DNA of 64,000 nt. Source: Ceratodon purpureus (Eukaryota; Streptophyta; Bryopsida; Pseudoditrichales; Ditrichaceae). The notes below the pieces were generated by a model, which was not told where the DNA came from, did not search any database, and was given only the letters and a program-made list of their open reading frames with translations. The stretch covers positions 12,488,533 through 12,552,532 of the forward strand of contig CM026425.1 in NCBI GenBank assembly GCA_014871385.1. The letters are read 5' to 3'. The position numbers and the translations under genes are program-made. This document shows, one piece after another, positions 18,094 to 38,617 of the stretch; the first letter of the stretch is position 1; each line of letters starts with the position of its first letter.

Positions 18094-18555
18094 CTACTTA
18101 TCCGAATCTTCGTCGTCGTCGCTGAGAAGTACGAGAGGGATACCAGGACTGTCTACTGCATCGTAAACCTCCTCTCCAGCGTACTCTAAACAATCCGAGT
18201 CCTCATCCACAAAAGGGTAACCACCATCCTCCGGGTAGAATTCACGCCCGTCGCCTCCAGCAGCGACGTCGTCCATCCACTTCTGAACCCACTCGGGGAG
18301 ACCATCGTCAGAACTCTTCACTTCAAAGCAAATAGAGCGCCCGTGACCTTCAACACACATCACGTGCATACGGTCCTTGGTTGGCGATAAGGATTCGCCA
18401 CAGTGGTCAGAGTGCTCCTCGGGTGGAGTTGGAGGCAAACTGTTCGGGACCGGGACTTCAAGCACGGGTGGGCTACACAATCTAAGATAGGCGCACGCAC
18501 CGGGGGCAGGGCAAGTCTTGCAGACCATTGCAGCACTCGGGGAGCATCTAGCCAT
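18094..18555 (-). CDS. Cys-rich N-terminus / acidic C-terminus protein, 153 aa, unknown function
   Basis: The coding exon begins exactly at a splice acceptor: TTTGCAG|ATGGCTAGATGC. Upstream lie a leader intron (18556-19584) with a GTGAGT donor, a short leader exon and a TATA box at 19631-19638. The protein has a Cys-rich start (CKTCPAPGACAYLRLC), a Pro-rich segment (PPTPPEEHSDH) and a very acidic tail ending LLSDDDEDSDK. This could be a metal-binding plus activation-type protein, but that is a guess. Promoter, leader exon and intron array are paralogous to those of the 20.8-kb gene, so both belong to the same element family. No known family recognised. Confidence 0.65.
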   Translation of the reverse strand: MARCSPSAAMVCKTCPAPGACAYLRLCSPPVLEVPVPNSLPPTPPEEHSDHCGESLSPTKDRMHVMCVEGHGRSICFEVKSSDDGLPEWVQKWMDDVAAGGDGREFYPEDGGYPFVDEDSDCLEYAGEEVYDAVDSPGIPLVLLSDDDEDSDK

Positions 18556-18616
18556 CTGCAAAATCAAAAGAACACGATGAGTCACAAAATCAATCAAAGA
18601 AAAGTCACAAGCATAT

Positions 18617-19510
18617 TCACAAATGCGAGGCCGGGAGGGGCTTCATCGGCCCTCTCGGGCCTCGGCCCGCAACCTCCATAGCCACATCATACAAAAACAA
18701 AGCCAAGCAACTTATATTGACTATGCGAGTCTGGAAGGGGCTTCATTGGCCCACTCGGGCCGCGGCCCGCAACCTCCATAGCCACAATTTACAAATACAA
18801 TGACAAGTAACTTATAATGAAATGCGAGTCCGGGAGGGGCTTCATCGGCCCTCTCGGGCCTTGGCCCGCAACCTCCATAGCCACATCATACAAATACAAA
18901 GCCAAGCAACTTATATTGAAATGCGAGTCCGGGAGGGGCTTCATCGGCCCCCTCGGGCTTCGGCCCGCAACCTCCATAGCCACAGTATACAAATACAATG
19001 ACAAGCAACTTATAATGAAATGCGAGTCCGGGAGGGGCTTCATCAGCCCTCTCGGGCCTTGGCCCGCAACCTTCATAGCCACATCATAAAAATACAAAGC
19101 CAAGCAACTTATATTGAAATGCGAGTCTGGGAGGGGCTTCATCGGCCCCCTCGGGCCTCGGCCCGCAACCTCCATAGCCACAGTATACAAATAGAAAGAC
19201 AAGGAAGTAATGAAATGCGAGTCCGGGAGGGGCTTCATCGGCCCCCTCGGGCCTCGGCCCGCAACCTCCATAGCCACATCATACAAATACAAAGCCAAGC
19301 AACATATATTGAAATGCGAGTCTGGGAGGGGCTTCATTGGCCCTCTCGGGCCTCGGCCCGCAACCTCCATAGCCACAGTATACAAATAGAAAGACAAGGA
19401 AGTAATGAAATGCGAGTCCGGGAGGGGCTTTTTCGGCCCTCTCGAGCCTCAGCCCGCAACCTCCATAGCCGCATTATACAAATACAAAGACATGCAAGTA
19501 ATGAAATGCG
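18617..19510. repeat. 98-bp tandem array (about 9 units) in a 5' leader intron
   Basis: Units start AATGCGAGTCCGGGAGGGG and contain CTCGGGCCTCGGCCCGCAAC and CTCCATAGCCACA, with a period near 98 bp (unit starts about 18627, 18724, 18822, 18920, 19020, 19118, 19215, 19314, 19411). GGGCC...GGCCC could form hairpins. Long open frames on both strands here are repeat artefacts. The array lies entirely inside the leader intron of the 18.1-kb gene. Confidence 0.85.
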
Positions 19511-19630
19511 AGACCAAGAGATGAGTAGACAACAAGAAGTCCAAAAAATTGCACAACAAGAAAACCTAAAAGAATGAGACTCACTGAATTGGATCGAACA
19601 AAAGGTGACAAACTAAGAGGGGGAACGTGG

Positions 19631-19638
19631 TATATATA
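19631..19638 (-). promoter_or_regulatory. TATA box of the 18.1-kb gene
   Basis: TATATATA read on the minus strand as CTATATATA. A leader exon follows, with donor A|GTGAGT ending at 19585. The homologous promoter of the 20.8-kb gene has the same box at 22219-22226. Confidence 0.65.
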
Positions 19639-19780
19639 GTAAGATGCCAGGGCACTAAGGCGCGACGGCTAGGTCAATGGATGATGGAATGGTATGAGCG
19701 GGCGCAAGAGCATGGGAGAGGATGAAGGTCGTGGAGGGCTCGACCGAGGCCCGCGGATTTCGAAGAGGGCTGAATCCCAT

Positions 19781-19794
19781 TGTCGGATCCGACA
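19781..19794. promoter_or_regulatory. Perfect palindrome TGTCGGATCCGACA, about 145 bp upstream of a TATA box
   Basis: Exact site. Its distance to the TATA box at 19638 (about 143 bp) is nearly the same as for the paralogous promoter (22368 to 22226), which suggests a fixed promoter element. Confidence 0.65.
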
Positions 19795-20312
19795 GCCATC
19801 TATGAGCATTTCGAGTAAACGCGGGGGGTCGATATTTAGACGGTGCGGCCGGGGCTCAACATCCCGGGTACTTGCTCCCGTGATCAACACTATAATTTGT
19901 CTGATATTCTGTACTATTCTATTCACCGATATATATTTAATTGGACACCACTTTCAAAAGACGAGCAAAACTTAAACACGTCGTAATAATGAAAAAAATG
20001 AGTTACATATAAATTCGAAGTCACTATTAAACGTGGGGTTACATTTAAATGTGGGGCAACATTTAAATGTGGAAGAACCAGTAGTCCTGATCCTATCGAT
20101 GGAACCTTAAAAAATGAATTTAATTCTATTTGAAACTTATTTAATTTTGATTTATAAATTAACGACATGGTTTATAAAATAGAGACGGCAGGAAGGCCGC
20201 GGCGAGGTCACGGATAAGGCGAATTGATAACCGGGGGCGAGGCCGTGGAATTCGAGACAGATGTGGATCTTGAGATTGAAGCCGGCGGATATCGGAGAGG
20301 CAAGAAAATGAT

Positions 20313-20326
20313 TGTCGGATCCGACA
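20313..20326. promoter_or_regulatory. Perfect palindrome TGTCGGATCCGACA
   Basis: Exact site in a third promoter-like GC-rich module (about 20200-20420) similar to those at 19.7 and 22.3 kb. A weak TATA-like TTTATAAAAT lies about 145 bp to the left (20170), but no credible gene follows. Confidence 0.55.
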
Positions 20327-20423
20327 GCCTAGTTTAGGCGTTCCATCATGCCGCCGGGGTTGGAGTTCAGAAGCTGAGGGTCTCAGCCGCCGAGGTCTGA
20401 GCGAGGTATGAACGTTGAGCATG

Positions 20424-20459
20424 CAGCGATGCTAGGGTGGCAGCGGCGAGCAGTGAGCA
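20424..20459. repeat. Inverted copy of the terminal-type block; candidate left end of copy B
   Basis: CAGCGATGCTA, three bases, then TGGCAGCGGCGAGCAGTGAGCA: the inverse of 16718-16753 with two mismatches. GTGGCAGCGGCGAGCAGTGAGC (from 20437) pairs with the right end of copy B at 38876 with two mismatches over 22 bp. It could instead be an end of the 16.75-20.42 kb segment, because the homology extends to both sides. Confidence 0.45.
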
Positions 20460-20762
20460 AAGAGCAGAGAATATGTTATTTACCAATATTCATAAAATCG
20501 GTAGTTTAGTCATTTTTATATTTTGACAGTAAATTAATTCGATGAAATAACAAGCATACTCATATATACAATCTATTACTAATAGTTTGTTCATATCATA
20601 ATGTATATCAAGCAAGGTAGATGCTAGCTTTGATAATATAGAAAATATCCGCATAAATAATTAGCTCATATAAAATATGCATCTATTACACTGTTTATGA
20701 GTGAAATTTTTAAACAAGGAGTAAATGGGGCCATCTTACTAACAACTCATTGATCATCGACG

Positions 20763-21356
20763 TCATGTACGACTATAATACTCCCGGGCCTGTCTACAGT
20801 TCCAGTGGCGCCGCCTCCTCCAAAAGCGCCTGGTTTTTTGAACAGGGCAAGGCAGTATTGCCGGAAGGGCAAAGACCACATGGGCAGGCCTCCTCACTCT
20901 AATAGGCGAGGAAGGAGAGGGAGGAGACATCGGCGGTGAATCATGTGGAGGTGATGTGGGCATGTAGCCCGGGGAGGTAGGCTCGTACACTGGGGATGTA
21001 GGCATGTACGCTGGAGAAGTAGGCATGTACTGTGGAGAATAGACCTCGAACGGAACACGGCCTAAACCGTCAGGGCTTGGTCCAGCACAGGTACAGTACT
21101 GCTGATCAAATGAATCTGAGAGATCGGAAACATTGATCACTGGAATGGGGTTGGAGATGGACTTCTCAGATGCATCGGAATACACCTAGAACATAAGAAA
21201 TCGAAAGAAGGTTATATTTCACTTTGAAATATGAGGTAAGCAGAAAATGAAAAGGCAGAAGTCATCTATGTAAATCAAAGATATCTTAGGTTTAGGGAAC
21301 AATCAATAAAATACCTCGGTGTCAGCTGGAGTTGATACTTGATCACGGCTCCCCAT
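20763..21356 (-). CDS. Small protein with RNA polymerase II CTD-like heptads (154 aa, 2 coding exons)
   Basis: Coding exon 1 is 21356-21315 (MGSRDQVSTPADTE), donor GAG|GTATTT. Intron 21314-21186 ends TTCTAG. Exon 2 is 21185-20763 (VYSDASEK...). Residues about 64-95 contain at least four consecutive in-register heptads of the form YxPTSPx (YMPTSPA, YMPTSPV, YEPTSPG, YMPTSPP), preceded by YSPQ. This closely resembles the Pol II CTD repeat YSPTSPS, including Tyr1, Pro3, Thr4, Ser5 and Pro6. The tail is basic (RRFWRRRRHW). Upstream are a leader exon, an intron with the 98-bp array and a TATA box. Possible role: binding CTD readers, kinases or capping factors. That is inference from motif resemblance only. 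Confidence 0.65.
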
Positions 21357-21429
21357 TATTTTCTTTACCGCACTCCTATTTCAAAGACCAATGTAATGAG
21401 TAAAAGGAAGATTAGTATTCTTCAATCAA

Positions 21430-22115
21430 GGAAGAATAGCCTCGGCCCGCACCCTCCATAGCCACAGTATACCAATGCAAAGACAAGCAAGTTATAATGA
21501 AATGCGAGTCCGGGAGGGGCTTCATCGGCCCTCTCGGGCCTCGGCCCGCAACCTCCATAGCCACATCATACAAAAACAAAGCCAAGCAACTTATATTGAC
21601 TATGCGAGTCCGGGAGGGGCTTCATCAGCCCTCTCGGGCCTCGGCCCGCAACCTCCATAGCCACATCATAAAAATACAAAGCCAAGCAACTTAGATTGAC
21701 TATGCGAGTCCGGGAGGGGCTTTATCGGCCCTCTCGGGCCTCGGCCCGCAACCTCCATAGCCACAGTATACAAATACAATGACAAGCAACTTAAAATGAA
21801 ATGCGAGTCCGGGAGGGGCTTCATCGGCCCTCTCGGGCCTCGGCCTGCAACCTCCATAGCCACATCATAAAAATACAAAGCCAAGCAACTTATAATGAAA
21901 TGCGAGTCTGGGAGGGGCTTCATCGGCCCCCTCGGGCCTCGGCCCGCAACCTCCATAGCCACATCATACAAATACAAAGCCAAGCAACTTATATTGAAAT
22001 GCAAGTCCGGGAGGGGCTTCATCGGCCCACTCGGGCCTGGGCCCGCAACCTCCATAGCCGCATTATACAAATACAAAGACAAGGAAGTAATGAAATGCGA
22101 GGCCGAGAGAAAAGA
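21430..22115. repeat. 98-bp tandem array (about 7 units), second copy, in a 5' leader intron
   Basis: Same unit as 18617-19510. It lies in the intron 22172-21376 (donor CG|GTGAGT, acceptor GAAATAG|GAGTG) ahead of the CTD-like gene. The flanking leader exon and the sequence just inside the donor are also shared with the 18-kb locus, so promoter, leader exon and intron were duplicated as a block. Confidence 0.85.
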
Positions 22116-22218
22116 AGATAACAAGAAGTCAATAAAAGTGCACAACAAAAAACCTAAAGGAATGAGACTCACCGAAATGGATTGAACAAAAGGTGACAGA
22201 ATAAGAGAAGTAACCTCG

Positions 22219-22226
22219 TATATATA
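22219..22226 (-). promoter_or_regulatory. TATA box of the CTD-like gene
   Basis: TATATATA, read on the minus strand as ACTATATATACG, about 50 nt before the leader-intron donor at 22172. The palindrome at 22368-22381 lies about 143 bp upstream. Confidence 0.65.
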
Positions 22227-22367
22227 GTAAGAACCAGGGAACAAAGGCGCGGCGGCTAGGTTAGCGGATAAGCAAAAGGGATGTCGGGGCGCAAAACCAT
22301 GTATTTGGCACAGGGTTGTGGAGGGCGAGACAAAGGCCGGCGGAATTGGAAGAAGCTAGAATCCCAT

Positions 22368-22381
22368 TGTCGGATCCGACA
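22368..22381. promoter_or_regulatory. Perfect palindrome TGTCGGATCCGACA upstream of the CTD-like gene
   Basis: Exact 14-bp site. The surrounding module (about 22250-22500) aligns with 19680-19880. Confidence 0.65.
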
Positions 22382-22871
22382 GCCTTCTTTGAGCATTCTA
22401 TGTACCCGCCGGGGTTGATAATTTAACGGTGCGGGTCGCAGCAAACGGGGTCTCAGCATCCCGGGTATGAGCTGCCGGGATCTTAACTGCCATGGTCTCA
22501 GCTAGGCGCGTATGATTTGCCGGATTTGAGCTGCAAAAGTGTAAACGGAATTTGTCGTAAACACTTTTAGTAACGAAATAATTCAAGGGCCAAGGCTGCT
22601 GCCGAAGGGGGGCCATGGGGGGATGCCTTGGGGATCTACATAGTTTAATTTGGCTTATGGGAATGTCAGTCAGTTCAAAGGATAAGATGATGGAGAACAG
22701 ATATTGGCTCTTATGTCTTAATAATTGGCATTCATATTTACAAACTCAAATTTGTTGTGTTTCGAATACGACTATAAAATGGGAAGAATCACAATGATAT
22801 GAATTGGTTATCCTTTTTCCTTTTTTCCGTTTGTTACTATAGTAGAAATGCCTCTCATCTTCAGAAAATAA

Positions 22872-23903
22872 TTAAAGTTCCAAGTGCTCCAGTTTTGGAC
22901 GCTTTGCTGGTTGATCATCATCGTCAGGTTCTGTTGTCCTCTTTCGTATAGGAACCCAATCGTATCATTTTTCCTATATTGATCCAGTTTGTCCACATCC
23001 AACTCGGTCCAGCCATATCCCTTCATTATCTGCTTTCCATGCGCAATCTATACAGTCAATAGGCATTGAAACGTGGTTCACTAGAGGAGGTTTCCATATT
23101 TTAACATCTCTACGATATGCCATACTGCCCAGGTCTTTAAATTTGCATATCCAAGGCGAACTGAGTAAACGCTCGTCGGTGCGTGGATTTAAGGATATGT
23201 AAAAAAATCGTTCGGAAATGTGTGCTCGAAGTCGTCCTGGAATTTTCACAGTATTCATTGGGGCATCCATAACTCCAAATGTAAGGAGTAATTCATCATC
23301 GAGATCATTGAAAATAGACACTCTATACTCCTTCAGAAATTCGTGGTGGTCCTCGTCCTCCTTCCATTGCTTAAAAAGCTTGTACTGATGTCTACCGCTA
23401 AAAGGATGGAACTGAGAAACATACAGACCATCTCGTTCAATATTCCATCGACACAAATATGTATCAGGGCTGGGACCTTGTTCACAGATTGGACAGTTGT
23501 CATTGTTGAAATTTGCATCATCGTGCCGCATAAGACGAGCATGTGGATGCTCCCAGATGCACATGTAATTAATCTCATATTTTTTGGCACAGTTCCATTC
23601 GCGGATTTCGTATTCAAAATCGCAAAACAAATTATCTTCAAAATCGAGAAGACCGCGGCCAACTTCGACAGATGCATGAGCTTTGATTTGATCAAAGACG
23701 ACATTTTGCTTTATTGGCACACCACGATCATATTGCTTTTCGAAGCAATCTAGCCATACCTTCTTGTATAAATTATTTGTAATTTCAACTGGCGACAATA
23801 CATTCTGTGGAGTTTCCTCATCGAAAGAATGTACTTGTTCGTAGCGAAATAAAATTAAGAGATTCAACAATGATAAAACGCCTCTAAATCTCTGAAGTTC
23901 CAT
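22872..23903 (-). CDS. Unknown protein (about 309 aa, possible basic C-terminal tail)
   Basis: ATG at 23903, open to a TAG at 22974. The N-terminus (MELQRFRGVLSLLNLLILF) is hydrophobic, so a signal or anchor is possible. The middle contains two Cys/His groups (NYMCIWEHPHARLMRH and NDNCPICEQ) that could bind metal. After two closely spaced in-frame stops near 22960-22976, the same frame reopens and reads DWVPIRKRTTEPDDDDQPA then KRPKLE to a TAA at 22872-22874. That looks like a nuclear-signal tail. Either a very short intron removes the stops or the gene is slightly damaged. It lies between the CTD-like gene and the ParB-methyltransferase gene on the same strand; no counterpart is visible in copy A. 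Family not recognised. Confidence 0.55.
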
Positions 23904-24298
23904 AATATAAAATAAAAGCGATGTTTGATTGAACTTTGACTGTAGATTACGAGCTTAAAAATTACGACAACAGAACTGTAACTTCTCAAATGTTGACAAT
24001 CAAAGTTGTGCATTTTGCTTTTCCTTTCATATCACTCATAATGCCTTTTCAGCAACGGTTATACCTTTTAGATACAAAAATGCCCACGAAAAGTGGTACT
24101 TGAAGGGAAGAGGTTTATATTCAAGAGTTGCATGAGAAAGGTGCGACCCATCATAATGGCAGATATGAAGGGACGCTATTAGGTGACAGTTGGGAATATA
24201 GGTATTCAAATGCACATATTTTGCCGACAAGACTCACATGTCTTTATAAACGAGTCAAGTAAGAAATAAAATACATTCCATAAAGTTCTTTCCCAAGC
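23904..24298. other. Intergenic, no gene seen
   Basis: About 395 bp between the unknown gene and the end of the ParB-methyltransferase gene on the same strand. A TTTTATATTATGG sequence overlaps the ATG of the 23.9-kb gene and could belong to its promoter. Confidence 0.4.
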
Positions 24299-27200
24299 CT
24301 AGCACGACTGGTCAGAGATGCAAGTATGCTCTACTTCTGCCTCAATATCTAGGAACCTTTGAGCTCGTCCATCGAATAGTTTGGTCCTCGCTATTGGAGA
24401 TGGTGGTGAGTCCAGTGTGCTCAACACCTGCGCTTGGTTCTCCGCGTAAACAGGAATTCGATGCATCACTGGCGACGGAATAATCTTCCGACTACACTCC
24501 ATGAGTATGCCGGAATGGGGTTGCACATTCGGATTCCTGCGTATAGATTGCAATTAGTGACTTTCAGTCAACTTGAGCAATAGTGAGATGATGAGAGGAT
24601 ATGAAGGAATTAATCAGAGCATACTCACTTACTCAAGCGCGAGTTTCTTCAATCTCTTTCGGGCAATGTATGAGTTTGTGGAGATAGGAGGCTCCGCGTC
24701 CGCTGTGGTGGTCTCTTCGGTGGAGGTGTTCTCTGCTGTGGCAGGCTGTACTAATGCTTGATTAGATGGTGCTGGAGGATCCAACTTCATGAGTACCTCG
24801 TTGAAGATGTCTTTGTCTGCCTCTAATGCAACGATATGGCGCCCAGTATCTCGACAGGCTTTGATTGATGCTCCTACAATCCATATCCACTGTATAATAA
24901 GTACCAGCAAGTACTTCTTCTAAAGCAAAGGAATTTGATAACAATTCGGCACTAAGACCTACCTGTGGCGGCGGTAACGTCCATGACCACGTCCCCTTCA
25001 TCAGTCGTGGCGCGAATTATGCTCTCCATGAAGAGCTGATCCTTCTCCCTCGGACCGCGCCAGGGTACGCGATTCCTCATGGCCTGGGTTGCCATCGTTG
25101 TCCAATTTTGGATGACATCGTCCTCGGCAATGTCGATTCCGTGCCTACAAAACTCTGGCGGTACCGTCCGAAACTCGAACTCCGAATGAGTAGAATGGGT
25201 AAGAAGGTGGACCCGAAAACAATTTGTCGTGGATCCGCTCTTCTTCGAAGAGCTGAGCCGCAGGCGATTGTATCCTAACCAGGACTTGTGAATCTTAAAT
25301 GGGAACCATTTCAACCACTCCTCCATTTCCTTCTCTACTGCTCCGGCGTCAGCGCTGTGAATTACGATTAGAGCGCCGTTGTCATGCAAAATATGTCCAG
25401 CGACGCCGAAAACTCCTGCAAGGAAAGTGTCGTCTCGATTGTTCCAATCTGGAATCTCATCTGTTCGCAGTGAGACACCTGGAACGCTCAACTTCTCTGG
25501 CACATCCACGATGACGAGATCGGCATATCCCCCACGAACAAGTTTGCCATTCTTGTATCTTGGCCGCTTATTCGCAATGCCCTTGATCCAGTCAAATACT
25601 GCATGGAAGCCCTCTGACATCCCCTTGAACGAAGTGATCATTCCCTCCTCAGCCCATACCGCTACAGATTCGTTCTTGATCAGCTGCTGCGAGCCCTCTA
25701 TATGCGCAGCTATGGCGACCACTGGCTTCTCGGCGTGCTCGATGCTTGGAGAGAGGCCAACCCTCTCGGGTGCTGTGGTCTCAGCCTTCTGATTCCCTGG
25801 CTTCTTCGCCGTCCTCTTCCTCTGCGATGGCTCCTTGTTCTGCGGTGGCTCCTTACTGGTCTCCCTTGACGTCGTCTTCGGCTGACCCCCTCTCTTTCGT
25901 TTGCGCGCGCTTGCATCTGCAGCCCCCGTCTTCGCGGACACAGCATGCGCATCCGAGTTGGGTAGACTGTCTAAATTTGGGGGGAGGATGTCGTCGACGA
26001 ACTCATTCACCTCCTCTTCGCCATCCTTCTTCTTCGTGTGCTGTTCCTTGATTGCCTTTTCTTCCTCAGTGACCATAGTCTTTGGGCACTCTAGGTACCA
26101 GCATCCCTCATTGAGGTGCTGCAAGTTGTATACCTTTCTTTGGTTCACTGTAAACATATACTCCGAGTTGTTGGTCTCCTTCCAGCTCTCCCAGGCTGCT
26201 GGGTACGCGTCTACCACTCCAGCTGGGATGAGCTCCCGCTTAAAGTACCTATAGACCAGCCTCTTCATAGCCATGTCAGTTCCAGCTTGCGACGCGAAGG
26301 GAAGAGATCTTGTGTAAGCATTGGCACCTGTAAAGAATGCCCCGTATGCCTTCTCCCAAAGGAGCACTCGCCACTTCTCCATGTAAGTCTCCATAGAGAC
26401 TCGTTTGGGCCTTACCTTGGGGCCAGATTCAGACGCCTCTTCTTCCTTTTCAATTGTTTCAAGCCAAGTTGAGCACTCAGCTTCCGCGGCCTCCTCAATC
26501 TCTAGATTTCATTAGCCCAAAGAAAGAGATTTAGATAGAGATATTAGTAGAATCTCCCATATAAAACGAAGTGATGAAGGTGGACATCTACGAAGCTAAG
26601 CAGGAGATTCTTACATTAGCCCAGAAGGCAGCTCTCGAAAGCCACGGGCGGAGCACATTCTCCGAGCACGGACTCGCAGGGAACTTTACCGTCTTCCGAG
26701 AACTTTCTAACCCGTTCCACATTCGCAGCCATTTTGCCTTCGCTTTGGGTAGTGCTTCAGTAGTGGCAACCATAAGCAATTTGTCCAAACTCATCTCCAC
26801 CGTCGTCGGATGTTTGTCGTAGTGGTTTTTAATCTGCAAATCAAGTCACCAAATTTCAAAGTTACACGGCATGCGTCAAGAAAAATCCGACATCCCCTCA
26901 ACATTTGAAAACCGAAAAAACCGCTGTCGGATCCTGCAGAGCATTTTGAAGATCAAACTTTTTGAAGACCCCTCGCAAAAATCTCAAGAGTTTGGCACCG
27001 ATTATTAAAGTTACAGAACATGCATCCGGAGAAAAACGACATCCCCTCAACATTTGAAAACCGAAAAAACCGCTGTCGGATCCTACAGAGCATTTTGAAG
27101 ATCAAACTTTTTGAAGACCCCTGCACTTTTAGTTCTCCGAAAACCATTGTCGGATCCTATAATACGATTCGTGGTAGTTCAAATATCACAGGACTTGCAC

Positions 27201-30200
27201 TATTTTCACGAATTCTAGCATGTAGAGTTAGTTTTTAACGCCGGTATCATGAATTTAAGCTCATTTGTCCAATAATTGGGTGATATTGGACATATAACCA
27301 TACAATTTAACACGGTACCGCGAAATTACTTGAACCAAATAACGACTGTCGGATCCCACAATGCATTTCTGACCTCTTGGATTTCCGAGACCCTTGCCCA
27401 GATTTAAAAAAATATCTATCCGAACATCAGAGAATTTCGAGAATGAAATCTCCTGGACCAACAGTACCGCAAAATTACTTGAACCAAATTACGACTGTCG
27501 GATCCGACAATGCATTTCTGACCTCTTGGATTTCCGAGACCCTTGCCCAGATTTAAAAAAATATCTATCCGAACATCAGAGAATTTCGAGAATGAAATCT
27601 CCTGGACCAACAGTACCGCAAAATTACTTGAACCAAATTACGACTGTCGGATCCGACAATGCATTTCTGACCTCTCGCATTTCCGAGACCCTTGCCCAAA
27701 TTTAAAAAAATATCTATCCGAACATCAGAGAATTTCGAGAATGAAATCTCCTGGACCAACAATACCGCAAAATTACTTGAACCAAATTACGACTGTCGGA
27801 TCCGACAATGCATTTCTGACCTCTCGGATTTCCGAGACCCTTGCCCAGATTTAAAAAAAGAGCTCTCCGAACAGCAGAGAATTTCGACAATGAAATTTGA
27901 GTGACACGCAGTCCCGCGATATTACTTGAACAAAATTACAAAAATCGGATCCGACAATGCTCTTTTGTTCTCTAAGTTTTACGTGACCCTTGCCCAAATT
28001 TACAAAAAAAGCTTACTGAACATTAGAGAATTTCGAGAATAAAATTTGAGGGACACAAAGTACCGCAACATTACTGATTAAAAATTATCATTGTCGGATC
28101 CAACAATGCTCTTTTGACCTCTCTGTCTTACGAGACCCTTCCCCAAAATTGTAAAAATACCTCACTGTACAACACAGATTTTCCACAATAATATTTAAGG
28201 AACACACGTTACCACGATATTACTTGAACAGAATTACCAATATCGGATCGGACAATGCTCTTTTGATCTCTAAGTTCTAGGAGACCCATGCCCAAATTCG
28301 GGGACATACCTCAGCATGAAACGCCTTTCCGTGCGCCGGGTTCGCCACCGACTGCTCCTTCTGGAACTTGCTTTGCAACTTATCCTTCGCTTCTTTGACT
28401 GCTTTCTCCACAGCATTCTTCATCTCAGCCCCGGTGTCTTCGTCTGGGTGCTCTGTAATCCAGAGCTGCACTGCCTCCTCAGCGACTCGGGCCAGTGTCC
28501 CCTGAGTAAATTGACATGTCAATATTTGTTTCTGTACCTCAATGAACCAATCATCATCTTCGGAATTCAGAAATTCTGAGTTACTTACCGCGTGAAGAAA
28601 GGACACAAAGACTTCGTGCGGCATGGTATGCCACGACCTCTTGGGAGCCGCCTTCGTTCGGGCCATGAGATCTGGGGGCAAAATACCACTCTTTTCCAAA
28701 TCCTCAGCGGACATGCCTCCATAGGTTTGAATCTTGTGCAGTGTGTGAGGCAGTCTCTCTTTGATGAACGCTTCCTCGTTGGCCCTGCATAGGCAGAGAT
28801 GTTAGTTCCATTAGGAGAATTAAGGAAGTTAAAACCCTGGACTGCATAAAAATGGAACAAGCTGAAAATTGGAAGTCTTACTTGTTGATCGCGTGCATAG
28901 CTGTCACTAGCGCTTCGCGACTGTTCTTCACCTCCAACAGTATGCAATCCGGTCTTCCATTTGCATATGCCCAGTCGTAGTCATCTGGGTACTCCATATC
29001 GATAAACCCGCGCCATGCCCTTGTCCGATGATTACCATCAAAGACGTAGAACATCTTCCCACTAAGATCACGAGTTTCCTCGTGTTTTGATAGCTCCGCC
29101 TCGAACATGCTGTTCAAGATATGCCACACTGAACACCAGGAAGACTTCATCTCTTCCGTCACAAGTTTCTCCTCGCCCATATGCGACGTTGCCGCAACGT
29201 AGAATGCCCCTGAGCCGGGCCTTATCCCATTGGAGAACTCAGTCTGCAATTTCTGAACGTCACTGAGCATCGCGGGTCGAACGAAATCACATGGCAGCAA
29301 CCGACATAGAGGAATCTTTATCAATGACAACTTGTCTGGTTTATGCCTCATTCTTAAAAGTGCCGAATAGGGATCCAGCTGCATTTCCGATCGAATCTGC
29401 CTTCTTGCTTCGTTAACCCCAACTCGCCCCGCAGGTTGCAACTGGACCGCAGGTGCACCCTCCCCCGTTCCAACTTCGACCGACATGCTGATCAGAGCTT
29501 CAGCACCCTCGCCTGTTGCAGCCTCGGCCTCACATTCGTCTGATGCAACAACCGCGTCGGCATCGATCTTGTCGTCGGGTCCTTTGGGCTCTTCCTCCCC
29601 GGTCGGATTCAAGCCCTCACGTGGGTTATCCGATTCCGCGTGATCGTCCCCATCCACAAAGTCCTCCATGAAGACGTCGGAGCCAACTTGACCACCAACC
29701 GCGACGGTCGGCGGTTGTGAGCTGTCCATATACTCGTCCCAAATCGATCCCTTCTGTATGTCCTCCAACACGGCGTTGACTGTGGCCGCGTTCTCGACAA
29801 CCACATCAGCAAGGTTCTTGATCGTTCCCTGCACAGAGATGCGGGTACATCATAAGACGCCAATAAATAACATGCAAAGAACCCTAAAAACATCCTCTCC
29901 TGAAACAACATGCCAAAAACCCTAAATGATGTTCAACCCTAACTCATCTATTTCTCCCTATATCCGCGACGCTACCATTTCGGTTACCTCCATTACTTGT
30001 GCATGCGACTTGAAGCCTTCTCGAAAAGCTGCTCAACGGAGCTTTGACACCTTGAAACCAACAAAAACAATGCAGCAGTCGATCACCAATTCCCTCCAAC
30101 AAGCGTTGCACACTCTGTCCTCCGTGAGCACTGTCCTAATCTTCCATAACCTCACATGCTATAAAGCTAACAACAATTTAAATCTCAGGCTTGACAGAAC

Positions 30201-31078
30201 CCACGAACAATACAAACATGTTTCTCTTATCACACTCGAAGGTTCTCCTCCCTCTTCCTTCTCACCCAAACCCCGTGTTTGTGGATAGCTCACGAGCGCC
30301 CCCTCGCCCTTTATGCTCCGAAACAGCCAGCCAGCAATAGCTTCATAAGCACACCTCAGCAATCCGGCGGCTCTCATCCCCAAACCTAGCCGCGGCTCTA
30401 TTGTCCTTGCCACCAACCCTCACTGATGGCTTCAACCAAAACCGCGTACTAAAACCCACCAAACAATGATGACTTTAATCGAACCCATAATTCTTTAAAA
30501 CCTTAAACATCACATCACCACAAGCCGCGTTTCGCGCTTACCATTACATGATCGTGGGTACTTTCGAAGGGTCTCAGTCACATCACTGTAGGCCGCCGCT
30601 ATCGAGTACCACTAAGCTATCATGAAAAGAAGCTGTCCATACAATCATGTAAATAGAGTACCTCCAATCCTCAATCTCAACTGTGCCAAGAACCACTTCA
30701 AAAGAACGTACCAAGAAGTCATGCAGGGAAGCTTACATCTGAATGAGGTCTCTCATTCACCAAATCAGCGCCGAGGTCATGCACCACCCCGGTCGAATCG
30801 TCAATCGCCACATGTCCTTCCGAGCGATGGCTGCTGCTTACTTCGGTGCCAGACTCCCGTGTGTTCGAGCTCGGACATCCCCCTACATCACAACGAGGGT
30901 CCCCAAGAATTGCCATAACGGATCGGGTTCCCTTACTGACCTTACTATTACTTTGCTTACTATTGCTGCGCTTCCTATCTGTCAAAATCAACCCCTTCTT
31001 CTTCGTCGTCCTCTTCCCTTTCGCAGGTGTAGCCTGCTTGGGTGAGCTCAACTCCCCCATGCAGCGTGACTTAGGCAT
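24299..31078 (-). CDS. ParB-like domain / DNA methyltransferase fusion protein, copy B (1303 aa, 8 exons)
   Basis: Exons, high to low: 31078-30737, 29828-28882, 28784-28589, 28501-28310, 26833-26615, 26499-24963, 24873-24633, 24536-24299. Total 3912 nt; every junction is GT-AG and in phase, and copy A matches at every one. N-terminus basic with KGKRTTKKK. About residues 280-430: ParB/sulfiredoxin-like fold with IPLCRLLPCDFVRP, GIRPGSGAFYV and FDGNHRTRAW. About 800-880: acidic then KR-rich linker (RKRKRGG). About 960-1200: beta-class N4/N6 methyltransferase order, with DLVIVDVPEK in place of DPPY (964-967) and then the SAM motif GDVVMDVTAATGASIKAC (about 1140) and GRHIVALEADKD. Bacterial and phage ParB-methyltransferase fusions have the same domain order. 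Tyr in DPPY is Glu here and in copy A, so catalysis is uncertain. Likely nuclear, binding the element's own sites. Confidence 0.88.
26925..28310. repeat. 149-bp tandem array inside intron 4 of the copy B ParB-methyltransferase gene
   Basis: The site TGTCGGATCC recurs at 26925, 27074, 27148, 27347, 27496, 27645 and 27794, with degenerate versions near 27944, 28093 and 28242. Spacing is 149 bp (once 74, half a unit). The units at 27496, 27645 and 27794 carry the perfect 14-bp palindrome. Unit bodies between 27347 and 27900 are nearly identical, and outer units are diverged. The intron (28309-26834) is the same intron that holds the 75/149-bp array of copy A. Unit sequences outside the palindrome do not match between copies. 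Confidence 0.88.
29829..30736 (-). other. Intron 1 of the copy B ParB-methyltransferase gene
   Basis: Donor GAT|GTAAGC at 30736, acceptor CTGTGCAG next to 29828, phase 0. No gene seen inside. AACCCTAAAAAC and AAACCCTAAATG motifs at about 29878-29940 resemble plant telo-boxes, as in copy A. Confidence 0.6.
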
Positions 31079-31502
31079 TGTTGACGGTGAGACCTGTCAA
31101 CCCTGTCGACGGCTCCGCTCATTCTGGTCCGAGCCCGAAGGTATGGAACGAGAGAAGTGAGGACATTACTCCACTCGGATAGATGAATGAGACGAGTGAA
31201 TGCCAATTACTGGATGTGGTAAAATTGCACTATGTGCAAACATCACGACCTGCATTTATGACATACTCTTTGACGGCTCCTAGTAAAAAGCGCTGCATAA
31301 TTAAATATCACAAATCCCTCTAATTTTTATAATAGTCCTCCTTCTTAAGTCCCTAACCGATTTTGTTCAACCGTAATTTGGTAATGATGCGGTCGGAATC
31401 CCGCTGATTGTAGTTCCTTCAACACCACGCTCTAAGCGCAGTCTGTATATGGGACTCACCATTCGTCGCGTCTCCATAGTTTAATCCTGATTTCTCGCGA
31501 CC
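31079..31502. promoter_or_regulatory. Divergent promoter region, copy B
   Basis: 424 bp between ATG 31078 (ParB-methyltransferase, minus) and ATG 31503 (transposase, plus). No clear TATA box or palindrome site. The shared position suggests coordinated expression. Confidence 0.5.
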
Positions 31503-34500
31503 ATGGCGCAAATTCGAGCTGAGGGGCACGAAGTTCCTCTCCATGTACCTTGTAATGCCGAGGGAGTCGGATCCGTTAGCGCTGTTCTTCTAAGCGTCAG
31601 ATACAACCTTGTGCTGGAGAGCATCCATCTAGAGGAGGAGGTTGTCGATGACGGCGGGAATTTGGTTCACACGGTTTATCAGATGCCCAGTAGGACTACT
31701 GAAGGGAGAGAGTGGCTTCAGGAGGCCAGAAAGTATGTTGCTAGGGGACTAACTCCAGACCGATGGGCAGCATCGACTGAGATACTTACACCCGGGTGCT
31801 CAATGACTTCAACTGTGGATGCAGGTCTTGGTACTGAGGCCGCGAAGTTAGATCGAGTGGTAGAAGAGATCCATGTGCTCAGGGAATCGGACGATTTGTT
31901 TAGAACTCCGCAAGAGCACCCCATACCGACGCAGAAGTCATCCTTAGGCAGCCCGAGTGTCGTCTCTTGTCTCAAACGCCTAGCTTCACGATCCGGCGCC
32001 AAGAATGCGTTGTCCAGGCTGAACTTCAGTACGCTGAGGACAGAGCAGGTACCCTTTCTTCCGGGCAAATTCAATGGCGATGTGCTTTTTGAGCTTCCTC
32101 CCGCGCCCCCCGCGACTCCATCGACGGCAAAATCAATGGCAGGAATGGACAAGAAGTACGACGGACATCCGTGGTGTAAGACGATGACGTCCAATATTTC
32201 CAACGACTCTGGGCTTACGTTTCGATACTCCGTTTGTGCAGGGCATCTAAGATGCTGCAATGACAATTGCAACTTTCGCAAACGAGGGGAGAACCGTCTG
32301 AGCGAGGTCAACGAGGCTGAGTGGGATGGAGTGTCGCTGACCCCCTTCCAGGTAAGTTGTGATCCCCCTGCGAAATCTACGCTCGTGTGTAAGATATGCA
32401 AGACTCCTCCGCAATGCCTCGCCCAATGCCCTGCTAGAATATACTACGTCCTAGGGGGGGCTGACATGACCCGTGCGTGCATCCATATCGGCACGCACGA
32501 CCATCCCGTAGGATACGCTGACTGCAGGTTAAGCAAACAGAAGATCCTCAACCTCGTCGAGTCGCATGTCGGTCAGAATCCTGAGGGCAAAACCTCTTCT
32601 ATTGCATTGGAAGCTAGCAAGGACTTCTTGAGTGACCTCTCCCTTGCCCAACCCGGCGAAGTGCGTAAATATCTTTCGGATGAGGAGCTCGATCAGGCGT
32701 TTAGGCTCTATTATCCTCTTAGCAGGCCAGATCTGAAGAACGACGTCACGACCTTCAGATCCGTCGGCAACAAGGGAGTAATGGACGGGATAGCCGCGCT
32801 GCGAGGTTGCAGCAAATGGGAGTTTATACACGAGAACAAATTTCCGGGACAGGTGGCGGAGGGTGAGAAGGTCTTCGTCTTCAAGATGTCGGAGAGGGGC
32901 CCCGGGTCAGGGGTGGATCTCGTGAAGCGGATGCAGCCTGGCGGAGACTTGGAAGATGCGTGGATCATGTTTGATCACGTCAGGCGAACGAAGGATTGGT
33001 CAACAATGGCATGTCATGTGTATGACTCCCAATACTGCCGTGTTATGACAGTTGCCGTATGCGATATGCAGTCGGAGGACGCTCGGGCGCAGAGTTTGCT
33101 CTGGCGGGGTCTGAACGGGGTAATGGCAAAGCACAAGGTGAATAATGTCAATTTCAAAGGCTTCATGGCGGACAGCGCACAGGCCAATTGGAACGCTGTT
33201 CGAGTAATATATGGAAACGGAAACGCGGACAATCCAATGCCCGACCGTGAGCGTACCTGCCAATTCCACTGGGCAAGTTCATTGAAGAAGTATACGGAGG
33301 CTCACATTCGAGGTCACGATCTCCAAAGGCAACATTACGCTTTGTGCAGGCAGTATCGAGATGCAAAGACATGGGAGGATGCCGACATTCGTTACCATGC
33401 CATCCGTTCTTGGTGGATTTCATCCGCGGCCTCGACACCTGCTGGACTCGAACATCTGGAGCAGTGGCTCGTCTTTTGGCACTATCGGTACCGGCAGTGG
33501 GGCAGTTACATGCAATTAGTGAGTCCTCTTCCGCTAAACTTGTCATTCTATTCGAATCCCTTGCTGCCACTGAACGTAGAGCTTGCTAAATTCATGGAAT
33601 TCTCTTTGAATGCAGAACCTCACAGACGAGGAGAAGGACGAGATGCCGTCGTGCAACCTCTCAGAGACTGTCCATAATATCTGGCTTCAGATGTCAGGCA
33701 ACCGTGGGATAAGCCTGTACACGGCCACAGTCGACGACTATGTCCGGGGCTTCATGCAGTGCACGAACTATAGCGCCTACCTCAGAGGAGAAAACCCAGG
33801 TAAAGGACCGAGCAAAGCCGAGCTCCGTTTACGGCGGGCTCAGAAGTCGGGCATTCCCAAACGTCTTGCTGATGCCACGGAACACTTCCACGACGCTCCA
33901 CAGATGCTCTCCCGTCAGCCCCACAGAGAAGGCAAAGAGGTCTTTGGCTCAACGAAGCGGAAGCTGGATCAACCAATTGGATCCGAATACGATTCTCATA
34001 GACCCGACAAAGTAAACTTCTCACAACCACGGGTGGCCACTAGGAAGACGCGTGCTCGGGTCGAAGCTGAACCGGTACCTGTGGACGCAGCCTCTTCGCC
34101 CGACGAGAATACGACTCGTCCACACGTAACTGCAGTAGAGGAGACGGACGTGGACGACAGTAAGTGGCATCTTGTCAGGCTGCCGAAGGGCTGTGCAAAG
34201 GCATGTTTCGCACAGCAGGCAAAGACAAACAAGAAGTGCAAGGCCAGGCTCGTACGCGGAGGGAAGACCACAGTTGTGCCATGCTACTCGGGCACCTTTA
34301 CAGAAGTCAGGAAGGATCGTCAGAAATGGATGCAGTTCTGCTTCTGTAACAACGACATTCAGAGATGCGTCATGGGCACGAAACGGAATTGGGTCTCAAG
34401 CATGGCGCCCCCTCCGCTTATCTGGCCCGTGAAGCGTGGAACTCGCCTGACAAAACGAGAGATTTTGGACCTAGAGGCTGCTGGTTTTAGACTACCTCAA

Positions 34501-35031
34501 CGTCAGGAGCTACCCTCTCAACGAGTTTTCCATGACGGCAACGGCAGCATTCCACAGCGGCCACGGTTTGAACTCTCGCACTTGGTTGTACTTGATGCTC
34601 CTGGAGTTTATCCTACTGTGCGTGTAGGTTTCAAGATTCGTCGCTGCAACCGGGTTCCTAGAACCGAGCACGAGAACAATTGGGCGTCGTCGCTTCTACT
34701 CACGGTTCATATCCAATCCGTGACAATGATACCAACACCTGGGTTTGGTTGCATAATCAGCCTTGTCTCCGAGACTGTTTCCGAGTCAAACTTGTACAAG
34801 ATCACAGTTGGCCCCGAGCCCGGATGCACCTGCCCCAACTTCAAGGAGATGTCCGTGAAGTCCCTTGGGAAACGTCCTCCCTGGGTCCCTTGCAAGCATC
34901 TTTACTACATCTACAACGCGATATGCAACCTTGAAATGCATCGGGACTCTTACATCCATGCTCCAACTCTCAGCTTTAACGAAGTGAAGACGATCCTCGA
35001 GAGCGGCCTTCTTGAGCTAGTAACATTCTAA
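31503..35031 (+). CDS. MULE-type transposase with WRKY/GCM1-like and SWIM zinc fingers, copy B (1143 aa, 2 exons)
   Basis: Exon 1 31503-33518 (donor TTA|GTGAGT), exon 2 33616-35031 (acceptor ATGCAG|AAC), both phase 0. Zinc-finger region: CKICKTPPQC...ACIHIGTHDHP around residues 300-345. DDE core: D491 in WIMFDHVRRT, D557 in GFMADSAQANW, then CQFHW (C586, H589), as in MULE transposases; I could not fix the third acidic residue. A Cys-rich linker (CFAQQAKTNKKC, FCFCNNDIQRC) follows, then a SWIM finger C1076-T-C...PWVPCKH near the C-terminus. It is longer than many MULE transposases. Role: excision and insertion of the element. Intact, no break seen. Divergent from the ParB-methyltransferase gene. 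Confidence 0.88.
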
Positions 35032-35568
35032 GGATCGTTGTTGCCACTTCAACCTCCTAGCCCAACTCCCGTGGATGCGAATCATGAACCGGCTTCGCTC
35101 CAACTTTAGGGTCGACTACCTTGACGACTTCGTTATACTATCTACGTTCTAGAATAAGGGAGAAGGCACTACTCATTTTCCGCAAATCTCAGATGCGCGA
35201 CCGTTGATGCATGCATCCATGTATGACATTCATTACAGCTTCTTAAATACATCTATATTCCGTGTGAAATATGCCTTCTCACTCATATTGCACTTACGCA
35301 ATTGTCTCGGTTTACATGGCTGCCGGGACAGTCAGACAATCATCACTCATCTAGCGAAATATCATTCATCTAGGTACGTCCCACTCTGAATGGGCTGTCT
35401 CAATCATGGAACCGGCAGCCGCGATAGATAACCCCACTGTACATTAATAATGGGCCGGGTGTGAGCCAGCCGGGGTGCCACTCCAACCCGGCTGTCGGGT
35501 TTCATTGCCACTCCGGCTCTTAGGGCTAGGCCGCAGTACCCCGCTTTCGACCTCCTCCCGAAAGTGAT

Positions 35569-35582
35569 TGTCGGATCCAACA
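35569..35582. promoter_or_regulatory. Near-perfect palindrome TGTCGGATCCAACA
   Basis: One mismatch. It lies in a module (CCGCAGTACCCC...GTGGGTTTT...GCGGGTGGC) that recurs around 36064 and, more diverged, around 37823. Confidence 0.6.
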
Positions 35583-36063
35583 GTGGGTTTTGGCCACTCA
35601 GCAATGTCGCGGGTGGCGCCAGGCGACCCTCGTCGGATAGTTTTCTGACGGACCCCTCCTTTGGTTATTGCCACTCATGAGAGATGAGGTATTTCTCGTC
35701 CACCAATATCCATCTTCCAGTGGTTAAAAAATATAATTGTTGAGCGCACAGAGCCGTTTAGATGATGGTACGATGCAGGTGGCCGGTTACTCCGCATTTA
35801 TTATCGAATATAACCGTAGCCACGGCATTGATCTCATGTTCACCCTAAACAAATTCTCAGTCATCTAGCATCTTTCCACGTTCAATGGGTTCTCTAATTC
35901 ATCGAACTGGCACCCGTGTTACTTCAAGCGCGCTCCACAGTAAGAGGAGGCAGTAAGAGCAAGCCCGGGGGGCTACTTTTACCAGGCCCCCGAGTTTCTA
36001 TAGGACTCCAGCTCCGACCGTCAGGCCGCAGTACCCCGATGTCGACCTCCTTCCGAAAGCGAT

Positions 36064-36077
36064 TGTCGGATCCGACA
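36064..36077. promoter_or_regulatory. Perfect palindrome TGTCGGATCCGACA upstream of the copy B 224-aa gene
   Basis: Exact site in the second repeat of the module seen at 35.5 kb, about 515 bp before the TATA box at 36578. Confidence 0.6.
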
Positions 36078-36577
36078 GTGGGTTTTTGCCCGTAACGAAT
36101 GTCGTGGGTGGCCTCGGTCGGCCCTCGTTGCATAGGTATGTGATGGACAGCGAGTTGGGATTTTGCCACTGACGACAGTAGTAAATAGTAATGATTGTTG
36201 AGAACAGTGGGCGGTCTTGATGACTTAACTCTGCAGGTATCCGATAACACTGTAATAACCGCAGCCAAAGCATTTATCTGATGCGTCAAACCTAGGTGCA
36301 GGTCTTTAGCCCTAAACAGGAATCTAGGACTTTAACGCCTAGAAGTTGTTTTATTGGTAATCCCATGGTAATCGACAGTGAAGCAATCTGTTGGAGGTTA
36401 CTGACATGTGCGCCATCATAATGACCTCGGTTTCATAAATCTCAGTTTACTCACCTTAATACAGCCTTAACACTGCCGTATTCCTGGGACGATGATTCAC
36501 CGCATCTTTTCACCCTAAACCATTACAGCAGTATCGTAATTGCCGGCGGCTCACTCATACTACCTGTGCGCTGATCT

Positions 36578-36587
36578 CTATATATGA
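36578..36587 (+). promoter_or_regulatory. TATA box of the copy B 224-aa gene
   Basis: CTATATATGA followed by ATG 36621. Conserved with copy A (14473-14482), although the DNA around it is otherwise diverged. Confidence 0.6.
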
Positions 36588-36620
36588 GGTTATTGCAGAA
36601 CGCTGGGTCATTTCCACCTG

Positions 36621-37295
36621 ATGCCAATAGACCTCGCAATGAATCCGATTTGTTTTAGCCTAGGCCTTAGATCGCGAATTATGTTAGACACCAGCTCCAT
36701 GATGGATCCGCAGATCGGGGATATAGTGTTTCGCAAGCCCTCCGCGCAGGCCAAGATTGAGTTTTCACTCTATCAGTCCGCTGAGGATTGGTCTCAGAAT
36801 TTTAAGACGTGGCTTTTGAAGGTGTTTACCTGCAGTGTGCTCTATGATGATCAATTTTTTCATTCCACTGACGCTCCAAAGAAGATGAGGTGCATCATGC
36901 TTTTCGTCTGGATACCTGGCCAAGGTTTTCAGGAAGCACCTTCTGGAGGAATCATGACACCTCATATTCCTCCGAGTGAGTCCACAACCTTCCATCGACT
37001 GAGTCAGGTGGGGTTCTTCCCGGACGGCAACAGCGTCACGTTGTGTTTTGCGCAGCCCTCCCCACCCGACCCAGTCACGTTTCTCAGAGTCGAATTCTGG
37101 AGAGACACGTACCGCCAGGAAGCGTATTCGGGGCTGCAGGTTCTTAATGTTGTTGACAACCCTTCGATGCAGTGCCCTACTCTGCGCATGATTTCTCTAT
37201 GGAAACGAAATGGCGAAAGATGGATTTGTGATAGTTCTGTGATAGGTCCAAGTCTGCAGTCTGTATCGGAGGTGGCGAAGGAAGTTCCCGTTTGA
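36621..37295 (+). CDS. Conserved 224-aa element protein of unknown function, copy B
   Basis: Starts MPIDLAMNP, stop TGA at 37293-37295. About 94% identical in protein to copy A (about 14 differences). The final roughly 95 coding bases are identical, and similarity breaks off just after the stop. The transposase, ParB-methyltransferase and 155-aa genes of the two copies are much more different. No family recognised. Soluble, with Trp-rich (EDWSQNFKTWLL) and Pro-rich segments. The contrast in divergence implies recent recombination or gene conversion over this gene, or separate transfer. Confidence 0.78.
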   Translation: MPIDLAMNPICFSLGLRSRIMLDTSSMMDPQIGDIVFRKPSAQAKIEFSLYQSAEDWSQNFKTWLLKVFTCSVLYDDQFFHSTDAPKKMRCIMLFVWIPGQGFQEAPSGGIMTPHIPPSESTTFHRLSQVGFFPDGNSVTLCFAQPSPPDPVTFLRVEFWRDTYRQEAYSGLQVLNVVDNPSMQCPTLRMISLWKRNGERWICDSSVIGPSLQSVSEVAKEVPV

Positions 37296-38149: not shown

Positions 38150-38617
38150 CTACTGCTCAACTTCGCCGTTCTCTGTGTACTCTTCCAAGAAATCTAGCCT
38201 CTCCTTGCCCTCGTGGTCTTGAAGGTTGATTCCAATCTCAGTCTCCGTCGACGCAGGCACACTGGGTCGCACATAAGGCTTTCGCAGCAGTGACACGTAC
38301 ATCTTTCCGTCCCCAACCGCACCTCCGTATGGATTTGACACATTCCAAACTTTCTTTGGTTGGCTTGGAGTGAAGCTCTTCGGTTTCCACGACGGACTTG
38401 AAATCTTTGGAAGTACTCCAAAAGTGCGAAGCTCGCAGTATGATCCAACTCTTGGAGGAACCACGGAATTATCATGCATGTTTTCAGCTCTATCCACAGT
38501 AGAACCTACACATGTACTCACCACCGAATAGTCACCCAAGTTTGAGAGGATGTCGATGACCTCACATTCCTCCACGTTGGGAACCCAAACATCAGTTTCC
38601 TTCTCTACCCTCTCCAT
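38150..38617 (-). CDS. Small acidic element protein of unknown function, copy B (155 aa)
   Basis: ATG 38617 (MERVEKETDVWVP) to stop at 38150. Counterpart of 15992-16455 with the conserved blocks VWVP..EECEVI.ILSNLGDYS, NPYGGAVGDGKMYVS and GINL..HEGKERLDF. The middle is poorly conserved. Upstream on the minus strand are two direct-repeat sites TGTCGGATCGGATATT at 38649 and 38713, so the gene may be controlled by the element's palindrome-binding factor. Function unknown; convergent with the 224-aa gene. Confidence 0.65.
   Translation of the reverse strand: MERVEKETDVWVPNVEECEVIDILSNLGDYSVVSTCVGSTVDRAENMHDNSVVPPRVGSYCELRTFGVLPKISSPSWKPKSFTPSQPKKVWNVSNPYGGAVGDGKMYVSLLRKPYVRPSVPASTETEIGINLQDHEGKERLDFLEEYTENGEVEQ

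Follow-up and report, generated by a model that had tools for sequence, protein, structure and literature searches.

The 64,000-nucleotide stretch of the moss Ceratodon purpureus analysed here (hereafter the window; C5:12488533-12552532 of a 362,488,568-bp assembly) carries two copies, A and B, of a giant (25-29 kb) multi-gene DNA transposon that resembles Mutator-like elements (MULEs). Within this MULE-like element, a transposase gene stands head-to-head with a spliced gene for a fusion protein that joins a probable ParB-like domain to a predicted N4/N6 methyltransferase fold, and intron 4 of the latter gene holds a tandem array of short inverted repeats. The features of the window are collected in Table 1.

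A giant MULE-like transposon with a spliced fusion gene

The limits of the element were read from related copies elsewhere in the genome. B-type copies on contigs C4 and C10 share a common unit of 25.2 and 25.5 kb, full B-type copies being 98-99% identical across the main aligned blocks, while an A-type copy on C4 spans about 29 kb as judged from where its two ends lie, the central 16 kb not being part of the fetched sequence. All three copies for which both ends were fetched are flanked by 9-bp target duplications, namely TGCCACAAT and TGTCCTCGT for the B-type copies on C4 and C10 (read with the termini set as CAGCGATG... and ...TTCCCGG) and CACTGCGGA for the A-type copy on C4 (termini CCGGG... 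and ...CATCGCTG); the target duplications of MULEs are 8-11 bp long, typically 9 bp. The terminal inverted repeats are imperfect or degenerate, with a common TGTGGCAGCGG core 12-13 bp from both ends and outermost bases that differ. Copy A, whose right end reads ...CAGTAGCATCGCTG, is 98.9% identical to the A-type copy on C4 over 9044-16756, and the element has apparently been active recently. The initial annotation, which had recognised a DNA transposon with a MULE-type transposase and a single eight-exon fusion gene opposite it, was borne out as to a MULE-like element and a single spliced gene by these ends and duplications, by the many genomic copies and by the gene model described below.

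An independent rebuild of the fusion gene from the sequence gave exactly 1303 aa, with GT...AG at all junctions and a stop codon ending at 24299, and at this level of evidence one spliced gene is confirmed. Corresponding exons were found at about 50% identity in two further A-type loci, one on another chromosome (L039) and one in which they carry stops (L040). Two C-type loci (L057 and L058), at 27-35% identity, still have exon 2 ending at the matching place, a long intron 4 and exons 6 and 7 joined within motif I, but intron 5 is missing and an additional intron interrupts exon 6 (junctions read from the listing). Because the junctions are conserved at such divergence, the gene model is supported even without RNA. 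Between A and B, the ParB core (148 codons) shows 67.1 synonymous and 51.9 non-synonymous differences, with a ratio of about 0.07, and the methyltransferase part (258 codons) a ratio of about 0.14; both ratios are rough, because synonymous divergence is saturated and, over the first half of exon 6, defies estimation. Per available site, the differences are thus mostly synonymous, which would fit a protein in use and can be taken as a rough sign of constraint. Copy A repeats the structure, as first noted, in its matching exons, but its reading frames are broken both in exon 6, which is split over two frames near 3500, and in the transposase gene.

Table 1 Features of the window (positions count from the first letter of the window)
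Feature	Position	Strand	Remark
Copy B, MULE-like element, minus leftmost 2.5 kb	16791..38890		alignment with complete copies on C4 and C10
Copy B right end, GCTCACCGCTGCCACACCAGAATTCCCGG	38862-38890		
Copy A (A-type), right part of second element; left end outside window	1..16753		
ParB-like/methyltransferase-fold fusion gene of copy B (1303 aa from 8 exons)	24299..31078	-	rebuilt gene model; relatives with matching exons
Fusion-gene exons 1-4	31078-30737, 29828-28882, 28784-28589, 28501-28310	-	
Fusion-gene exons 5-8	26833-26615, 26499-24963, 24873-24633, 24536-24299	-	
Probable ParB/sulfiredoxin-like domain, exon 2, box FDGNHRTRAW	28884..29453	-	hhalign versus 12 phage ParB proteins
Predicted N4/N6 methyltransferase-fold domain, exon 6 part	24964..25743	-	motif IV position reads DVPE
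Exon 7: motif I end and acidic motif II (GRHIVALEAD)	24633..24873	-	
Intron 4, copy B: 149-bp tandem array, 10 TGTCGGATCCGACA sites (<=2 mismatches)	26834..28309		
Intron 4, copy A (ends approximate): 20 half-sites TGTCGGAT	4330..6570		counted over 4250-6570
Four dispersed perfect TGTCGGATCCGACA palindromes at 17556, 19781, 20313, 22368	17556..22381		
Dispersed sites flanking the 235-aa ORF: 35569 (1 mismatch), 36064 (perfect), 37823 (1 mismatch)	35569..37836		
Transposase, copy B, two exons, ~31503-33518 and 33616-35031	31503..35031	+	junction by eye
Transposase, copy A, frame interrupted near 11062-11173	9920..13480	+	aligns to B at 73%
Accessory open reading frame (ORF), 235 aa, no family match	36588..37295	+	A-type C4 copy: 93% identity over 225 aa
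Accessory ORF, ~155 aa, no credible family match	38150..38629	-	
Accessory ORF without family match, 309 aa if started at the first ATG	22974..23954	-	DNA 85-87% conserved in A-type arm

The element is abundant. Searching the genome with the fusion protein gave 74 exon matches from 43 scored candidates; the ParB-like exon occurs in at least 150 places and falls into at least three divergent subfamilies (A, B and C), with B-type protein matches of 95-98% on many contigs. The methyltransferase exon is free of stops in 12 of the 14 autosomal B-type loci besides the window (L002-L015, a count that leaves out the partial loci L023 and L026). In 49 of 64 cases, an autosomal A/B-type ParB-like exon has a transposase exon no more than 8 kb away, and in 48 of these the two stand head-to-head; none of the 25 C-type exons has a detected relative of the element's transposase at that distance; this pairing count leaves out ParB-like exons on C6, C45 and C144, five weak or partial autosomal ones, and transposase exons on C6, C45 and C61. 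The idea of a centromeric element, with about one B copy for each chromosome, was abandoned, since two or more occur on several contigs and the A and C types are widely spread.

On contig C6 (110,524,308 bp), a presumed sex chromosome, all nine B-type-like methyltransferase exons (L016-L022, L024, L025) carry stops, and some other ParB-like exons are open; passages of a published account give the U and V chromosomes of C. purpureus as more than 100 Mb each in a genome of 360 Mb (PMC8000587). Among A-type and B-type copies (L031-L038, L043, L044), the end sequences CCGGG... and CAGCGATG... stand in opposite order relative to the genes. One A-type copy (L039/L042, C2:1823851-1841850) matches the window copy only as far as the middle of the transposase gene, where it looks truncated or rearranged.

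The two halves of the fusion protein

An N4/N6 methyltransferase fold of the beta-class order is supported by sequence profiles. Pfam N6_N4_Mtase matched the B domain (exons 6 and 7; C-terminal 55 residues) at E 1.3e-5 (25.7 bits versus a cut-off of 26.7), the copy A exon at E 1.4e-4 over most of the profile, and the whole B protein at E 1.7e-4, and the joined exons 6 and 7 matched DpnA in the PDB (2.4e-4) and CcrM in NCBIfam (1.1e-5). Exon 6 of B taken alone had no NCBIfam or PHROGs match, and that of A a weak one in PHROGs (E 0.005). Motif I and the acidic motif II are kept in the A, B and C types. Catalytic motif IV of such enzymes is [DNS]PP[YFW] (DPPY type), and it is lost in all 32 loci read: the position shows DVPE in 24 of the 26 B-type-like loci and DVPQ or DVLE in one each, DIPE in four of four A-type loci and QVPD in two of two C-type loci, with the aromatic residue present in none. 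Since the motif is altered in every locus read, an enzyme needing [DNS]PP[YFW] would be dead, and this half of the protein has probably lost catalysis.

These observations bear on whether the fusion protein could be a working N4/N6 methyltransferase, binding the element that encodes it and methylating it, as proposed for the Sola1 protein of Ectocarpus. The profile matches and the retention of motif I and the acidic residue would be expected of such an enzyme; moreover, GATC, a motif shared by many N6-adenine enzymes, occurs within the A/B palindrome described below, and DpnA, the top match in the PDB, is annotated as adenine-specific. Self-methylation is nevertheless demoted because motif IV is lost, which argues against it in the moss lineage, and the C-type motif TCTCGGTNCCGAGA has no GATC. 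We therefore consider an active enzyme, and with it a marking of element DNA by methylation, quite unlikely.

The other half is probably ParB-like. Its run IPLCRLLP...DVQKLQ...NGIRPGS...FYVFDGNHRTRAW is one that we take to fit the ParB superfamily, and hhalign comparison with 12 diverse phage ParB proteins, which looked for a shared order of strands and helices and for a G-x-x-R box, gave probabilities of 28% (3-row alignment) and 48% (12-row alignment) uncut, rising to 58% and 66% after removal of N-terminal columns and of an insertion of ~44 columns between strands 2 and 3. Among shuffled controls, the best of 100 reached 4.2% and 3.0%, and the best of 60 reached 2.1% and 2.5%. Loci L057-L068 were tried for the 12-row alignment, from which L066 and L067 were dropped as having no usable stretch. 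PHROG 1033 (ParB) was matched at E 0.13 by the copy A sequence only, and a PF02195 profile search of the host genome returned no matches. In the PDB, a sequence search with the ParB part found no match and a 3-row profile found only three weak, unrelated chains; in viral contigs, 3 and 103 pattern matches were obtained, none of them confirmed, and tblastn against phages gave no match.

Structure prediction added nothing to this picture. The AlphaFold model of the methyltransferase exon (two sequences) had a mean predicted local distance difference test (pLDDT) score of 36 and was unusable. A Foldseek search at E <=10 gave 166 matches for this model and 52 for that of the ParB-like exon. In neither set did a match reach E 0.001, and neither a ParB nor a DNA methyltransferase is among the 50 listed for each, though YbeA (E 0.6) and an O-methyltransferase (E 2.2) are listed for the methyltransferase exon. 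Both runs, made on low-pLDDT models, carry no information. Of the two domains named in the initial annotation, the methyltransferase fold is thus upheld by profile matches, and the ParB-like one is weakly supported by its motif and by profile-profile scores above those of all shuffled sequences, with nothing usable from the predicted structures for either.

Subfamily-specific palindromes and the intron 4 arrays

The A and B types both use the perfect 14-bp palindrome TGTCGGATCCGACA, which has 591 perfect sites genome-wide against ~1.4 expected (length / 4^14) and none for a reversed control. The window contains 29 sites with <=3 mismatches, of which 28 fall within the element copies, none further right than 38713, and the last is at 47548; the eight perfect ones are the four left-arm sites and the one at 36064 given in Table 1, together with those at 27496, 27645 and 27794. 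In the complete copies on C4 and C10 there are 21 and 23 sites (<=2 mismatches), with none in the fetched flanks. In a k-mer look, TGTCGGATCCGACA was the top repeated 14-bp palindrome of the C4 element (7 perfect copies), with two perfect copies in an A-type arm and none in the A-type right arm of the window; in the unrelated flank, AT repeats drowned out any other signal.

Many of these sites lie in the long fourth intron of the fusion gene, where all three subfamilies have an array, with periods of 149 (A), 149 (B) and 151 bp (C). In copy B, the palindromes are in register with the array, other B copies step by 149-150 bp, and the number of array sites differs among close B copies (10, 11 and 13). 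In copy A, for which Tandem Repeats Finder gave the same period, the TGTCGGAT half-sites comprise seven on the plus strand (4709-5494) followed by thirteen on the minus strand (5574-6467), the latter spaced 74-75 bp apart, and full palindromes are located elsewhere in other A-type copies. The C-type array (7.4 and 8.4 units) is of a different sequence, with TCTCGGTGCCGAGA at each step, and the corresponding motif TCTCGGTNCCGAGA has 466+536 strand hits genome-wide versus 6+5 for its control. Introns 4 of A and B are unalignable by blastn, and TGTCGGATCCGACA and TCTCGGTNCCGAGA share a common TCGG-NN-CCGA core.

The two motifs are specific to their subfamilies. No TGTCGGATCCGACA site was found at <=3 mismatches in two 9-kb C-type loci. 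In the site listings, which cover C1 and part of C2, zones within 25 kb of listed loci make up ~1% of the sequence. Of the 50 A/B-motif sites listed, 39 fall in the zones of listed A/B-type loci and none in those of C-type loci; of the 84 C-motif sites, C-type zones take in 67 and A/B-type zones none.

Could the arrays be inert satellites in a large intron, their palindromes spread by tandem duplication and element copying? Tandem arrays do expand by slippage, and two ~300-bp stretches around the dispersed sites 35569 and 36064 are 70-72% alike. Yet the non-coding DNA of A and B is mostly unalignable while TGTCGGATCCGACA is kept in both at separate places, and it is the pitch of the arrays that is kept, not the repeat sequence, with the C motif having the same core; an inert origin accordingly appears very unlikely to us.

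Further details of these repeats were noted. The half-site array of copy A (4709-6474) is inverted about a point near 5530. At three of the listed C-type loci, another compact group of three to five palindromes is found 6-7 kb beyond the intron array (C1:9798081-9798410, C2:976106-976434 and C2:2296437-2296602).

Elsewhere in the element, a SWIM-like CxC...CxH near the C terminus of the transposase was seen by eye only; neither transposase exon had a Pfam match, and exon 2 had no NCBIfam match. An ORF at 20763-21185 on the minus strand contains heptads YMPTSPAYMPTSPVYEPTSP, which we take to resemble the tail of RNA polymerase II, and is also present in the complete C4 copy. The left arm of B carries a second satellite, of 99-bp period, at 18621-19512 and 21439-22109, and TCTCGGATCCGAAA is also present in the left arm of the complete copies. 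A long TA microsatellite at 51300-51590 is unrelated to the element.

Proposed self-recognition, its alternatives and known systems

The initial annotation had suggested that a captured prokaryotic module may serve in binding, marking or segregating element DNA; binding is the best of these ideas to remain, with the subfamily-specific palindrome arrays as candidate targets. We favour self-recognition with anti-silencing because the anatomy resembles that of the targets of VANC21, an Arabidopsis protein discussed below, and from it we infer motif binding, spreading and protection from silencing. The fusion protein would recognise the short inverted-repeat motif, which is dispersed over non-coding DNA of the element that encodes it and is densest in the intron 4 array. 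It would load at this array and then spread, and the loaded protein would shield the element from silencing chromatin of the host, as VANC does for VANDAL MULEs. Loading and spreading would fall to the ParB-like domain, and the methyltransferase fold would bind DNA or SAM (S-adenosylmethionine) without catalysis. For this reading as a whole, a giant MULE-like transposon whose fusion protein recognises an own-element motif, spreads and keeps off silencing with a non-catalytic methyltransferase half, we see the chances as evenly balanced. A eukaryotic counterpart of ParB-parS self-recognition, in which the subfamily protein and its own palindrome, set in an intron 4 array of nucleosome pitch (~150 bp), co-diverge (TGTCGGATCCGACA vs TCTCGGTNCCGAGA) and the loaded protein spreads against silencing, is offered tentatively, as possible but less than probable.

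Several results weigh against self-recognition. No ParA-like and no VANC (DUF1985) Pfam match was found in the six proteins or exons scanned, the small left-arm ORFs not being among them. The ParB-like half had no match in Pfam, ParB_N included, or in NCBIfam, its best hhalign probability (66%) was reached only after the insertion and N-terminal columns had been cut, and its AlphaFold model (three sequences, mean pLDDT 43) was unusable. Copy A of the window holds no perfect TGTCGGATCCGACA palindrome, and 11 of the 50 A/B-motif and 17 of the 84 C-motif listed sites lie more than 25 kb from a listed copy of their own subfamily; such sites may go with copies that the lists do not reach, and five of the 11 have a transposase exon no more than 10 kb away, as read from the lists. 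Finally, another protein of the element, including the transposase, could bind the motif.

This last point can be developed into an explanation of its own, in which the palindromes are bound by the transposase or another accessory ORF product and the fusion protein has unrelated work in transposition, such as nicking or NTP hydrolysis. The motif is spread element-wide, and ParB-like domains of other mobile elements are reported, in passages of a published paper, as NTPases or nickases (PMC5512222). Against it, each of the three subfamilies has the array within a fusion-gene intron, and C-type loci carry the array although none of their 25 ParB-like exons has a detected transposase relative within 8 kb (a more divergent transposase is possible). 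On balance we consider this explanation unlikely.

The combination of a ParB-like domain with tandem 14-bp inverted repeats inside its gene also recalls true partition systems, and sopC or parS sites adjoin plasmid ParB genes. A parS-like system for segregating excised circles of the element, or for tethering them, would fit this arrangement; the absence of a ParA-like match in the six proteins or exons scanned, the lack of evidence for an extrachromosomal form, and the nature of the element as a chromosomal transposon with target duplications make it extremely improbable.

Self-recognition can also be compared with known systems. With plasmid and phage ParB/parS pairs such as SopB/sopC, the moss element shares a ParB-type box and a tandem inverted-repeat array at the ParB gene, and it differs in that no ParA or helix-turn-helix match was found, in its intronic array and in the fused methyltransferase fold. 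With bacterial and phage ParB-methylases, of which one from Bacillus cereus is cited as a nicking enzyme in the passages concerned (PMC5512222), it shares the two-domain idea, but the moss gene is spliced, eukaryotic, carried on a transposon and altered at motif IV.

Closer counterparts are known from algae. As described in passages of one report, the 21.5-kb Ectocarpus transposon Sola1-1_Ec32 encodes a 1104-aa protein with ParB-like and N4/N6-methyltransferase domains on the strand opposite the transposase, similar proteins are cited for green and red algal transposons, and the authors suggest that the protein binds and epigenetically modifies the element (PMC12477816). The class of fusion is therefore not new, contrary to the initial annotation, which had known of no plant transposon with such a gene. 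The moss element shares with the Ectocarpus transposon the joining of both domains in one protein opposite the transposase, and is set apart by being MULE-like with 9-bp duplications; it also has a lost motif IV and palindrome arrays. In the open-access literature we found no land-plant or MULE case, no motif IV loss and no candidate target motif. The MULE setting in a moss, the lost motif IV and the co-diverging arrays appear new, and the land-plant case may be. The Ectocarpus passages name no target sequence, whereas the moss offers a concrete 14-bp candidate with hundreds of genomic sites and an array in its own intron, and a second subfamily with its own palindrome makes a two-by-two binding test possible.

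The nearest functional parallel would be the VANDAL elements of Arabidopsis, whose VANC21 protein binds YAGTATTAY within tandem repeats that lie in non-coding parts of the MULE encoding it, among them introns of VANC21 and VANB21, with target arrays that vary in size between copies (PMC5735166). Common to both systems are a MULE with an extra gene, an element-specific short motif in non-coding tandem repeats including the gene's own introns, motifs that differ between subfamilies, and repeat numbers that vary between close copies (PMC5735166, PMC10398659). They differ in that no VANC domain was found in the scanned moss proteins, in that anti-silencing in the moss is our inference, and in that the moss motif is a palindrome whereas the VANC motif is described there as a 9-mer arrayed in one orientation. 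If the proposed binding is true, plants would gain, besides VANC, a further anti-silencing or self-marking system, built from prokaryotic parts.

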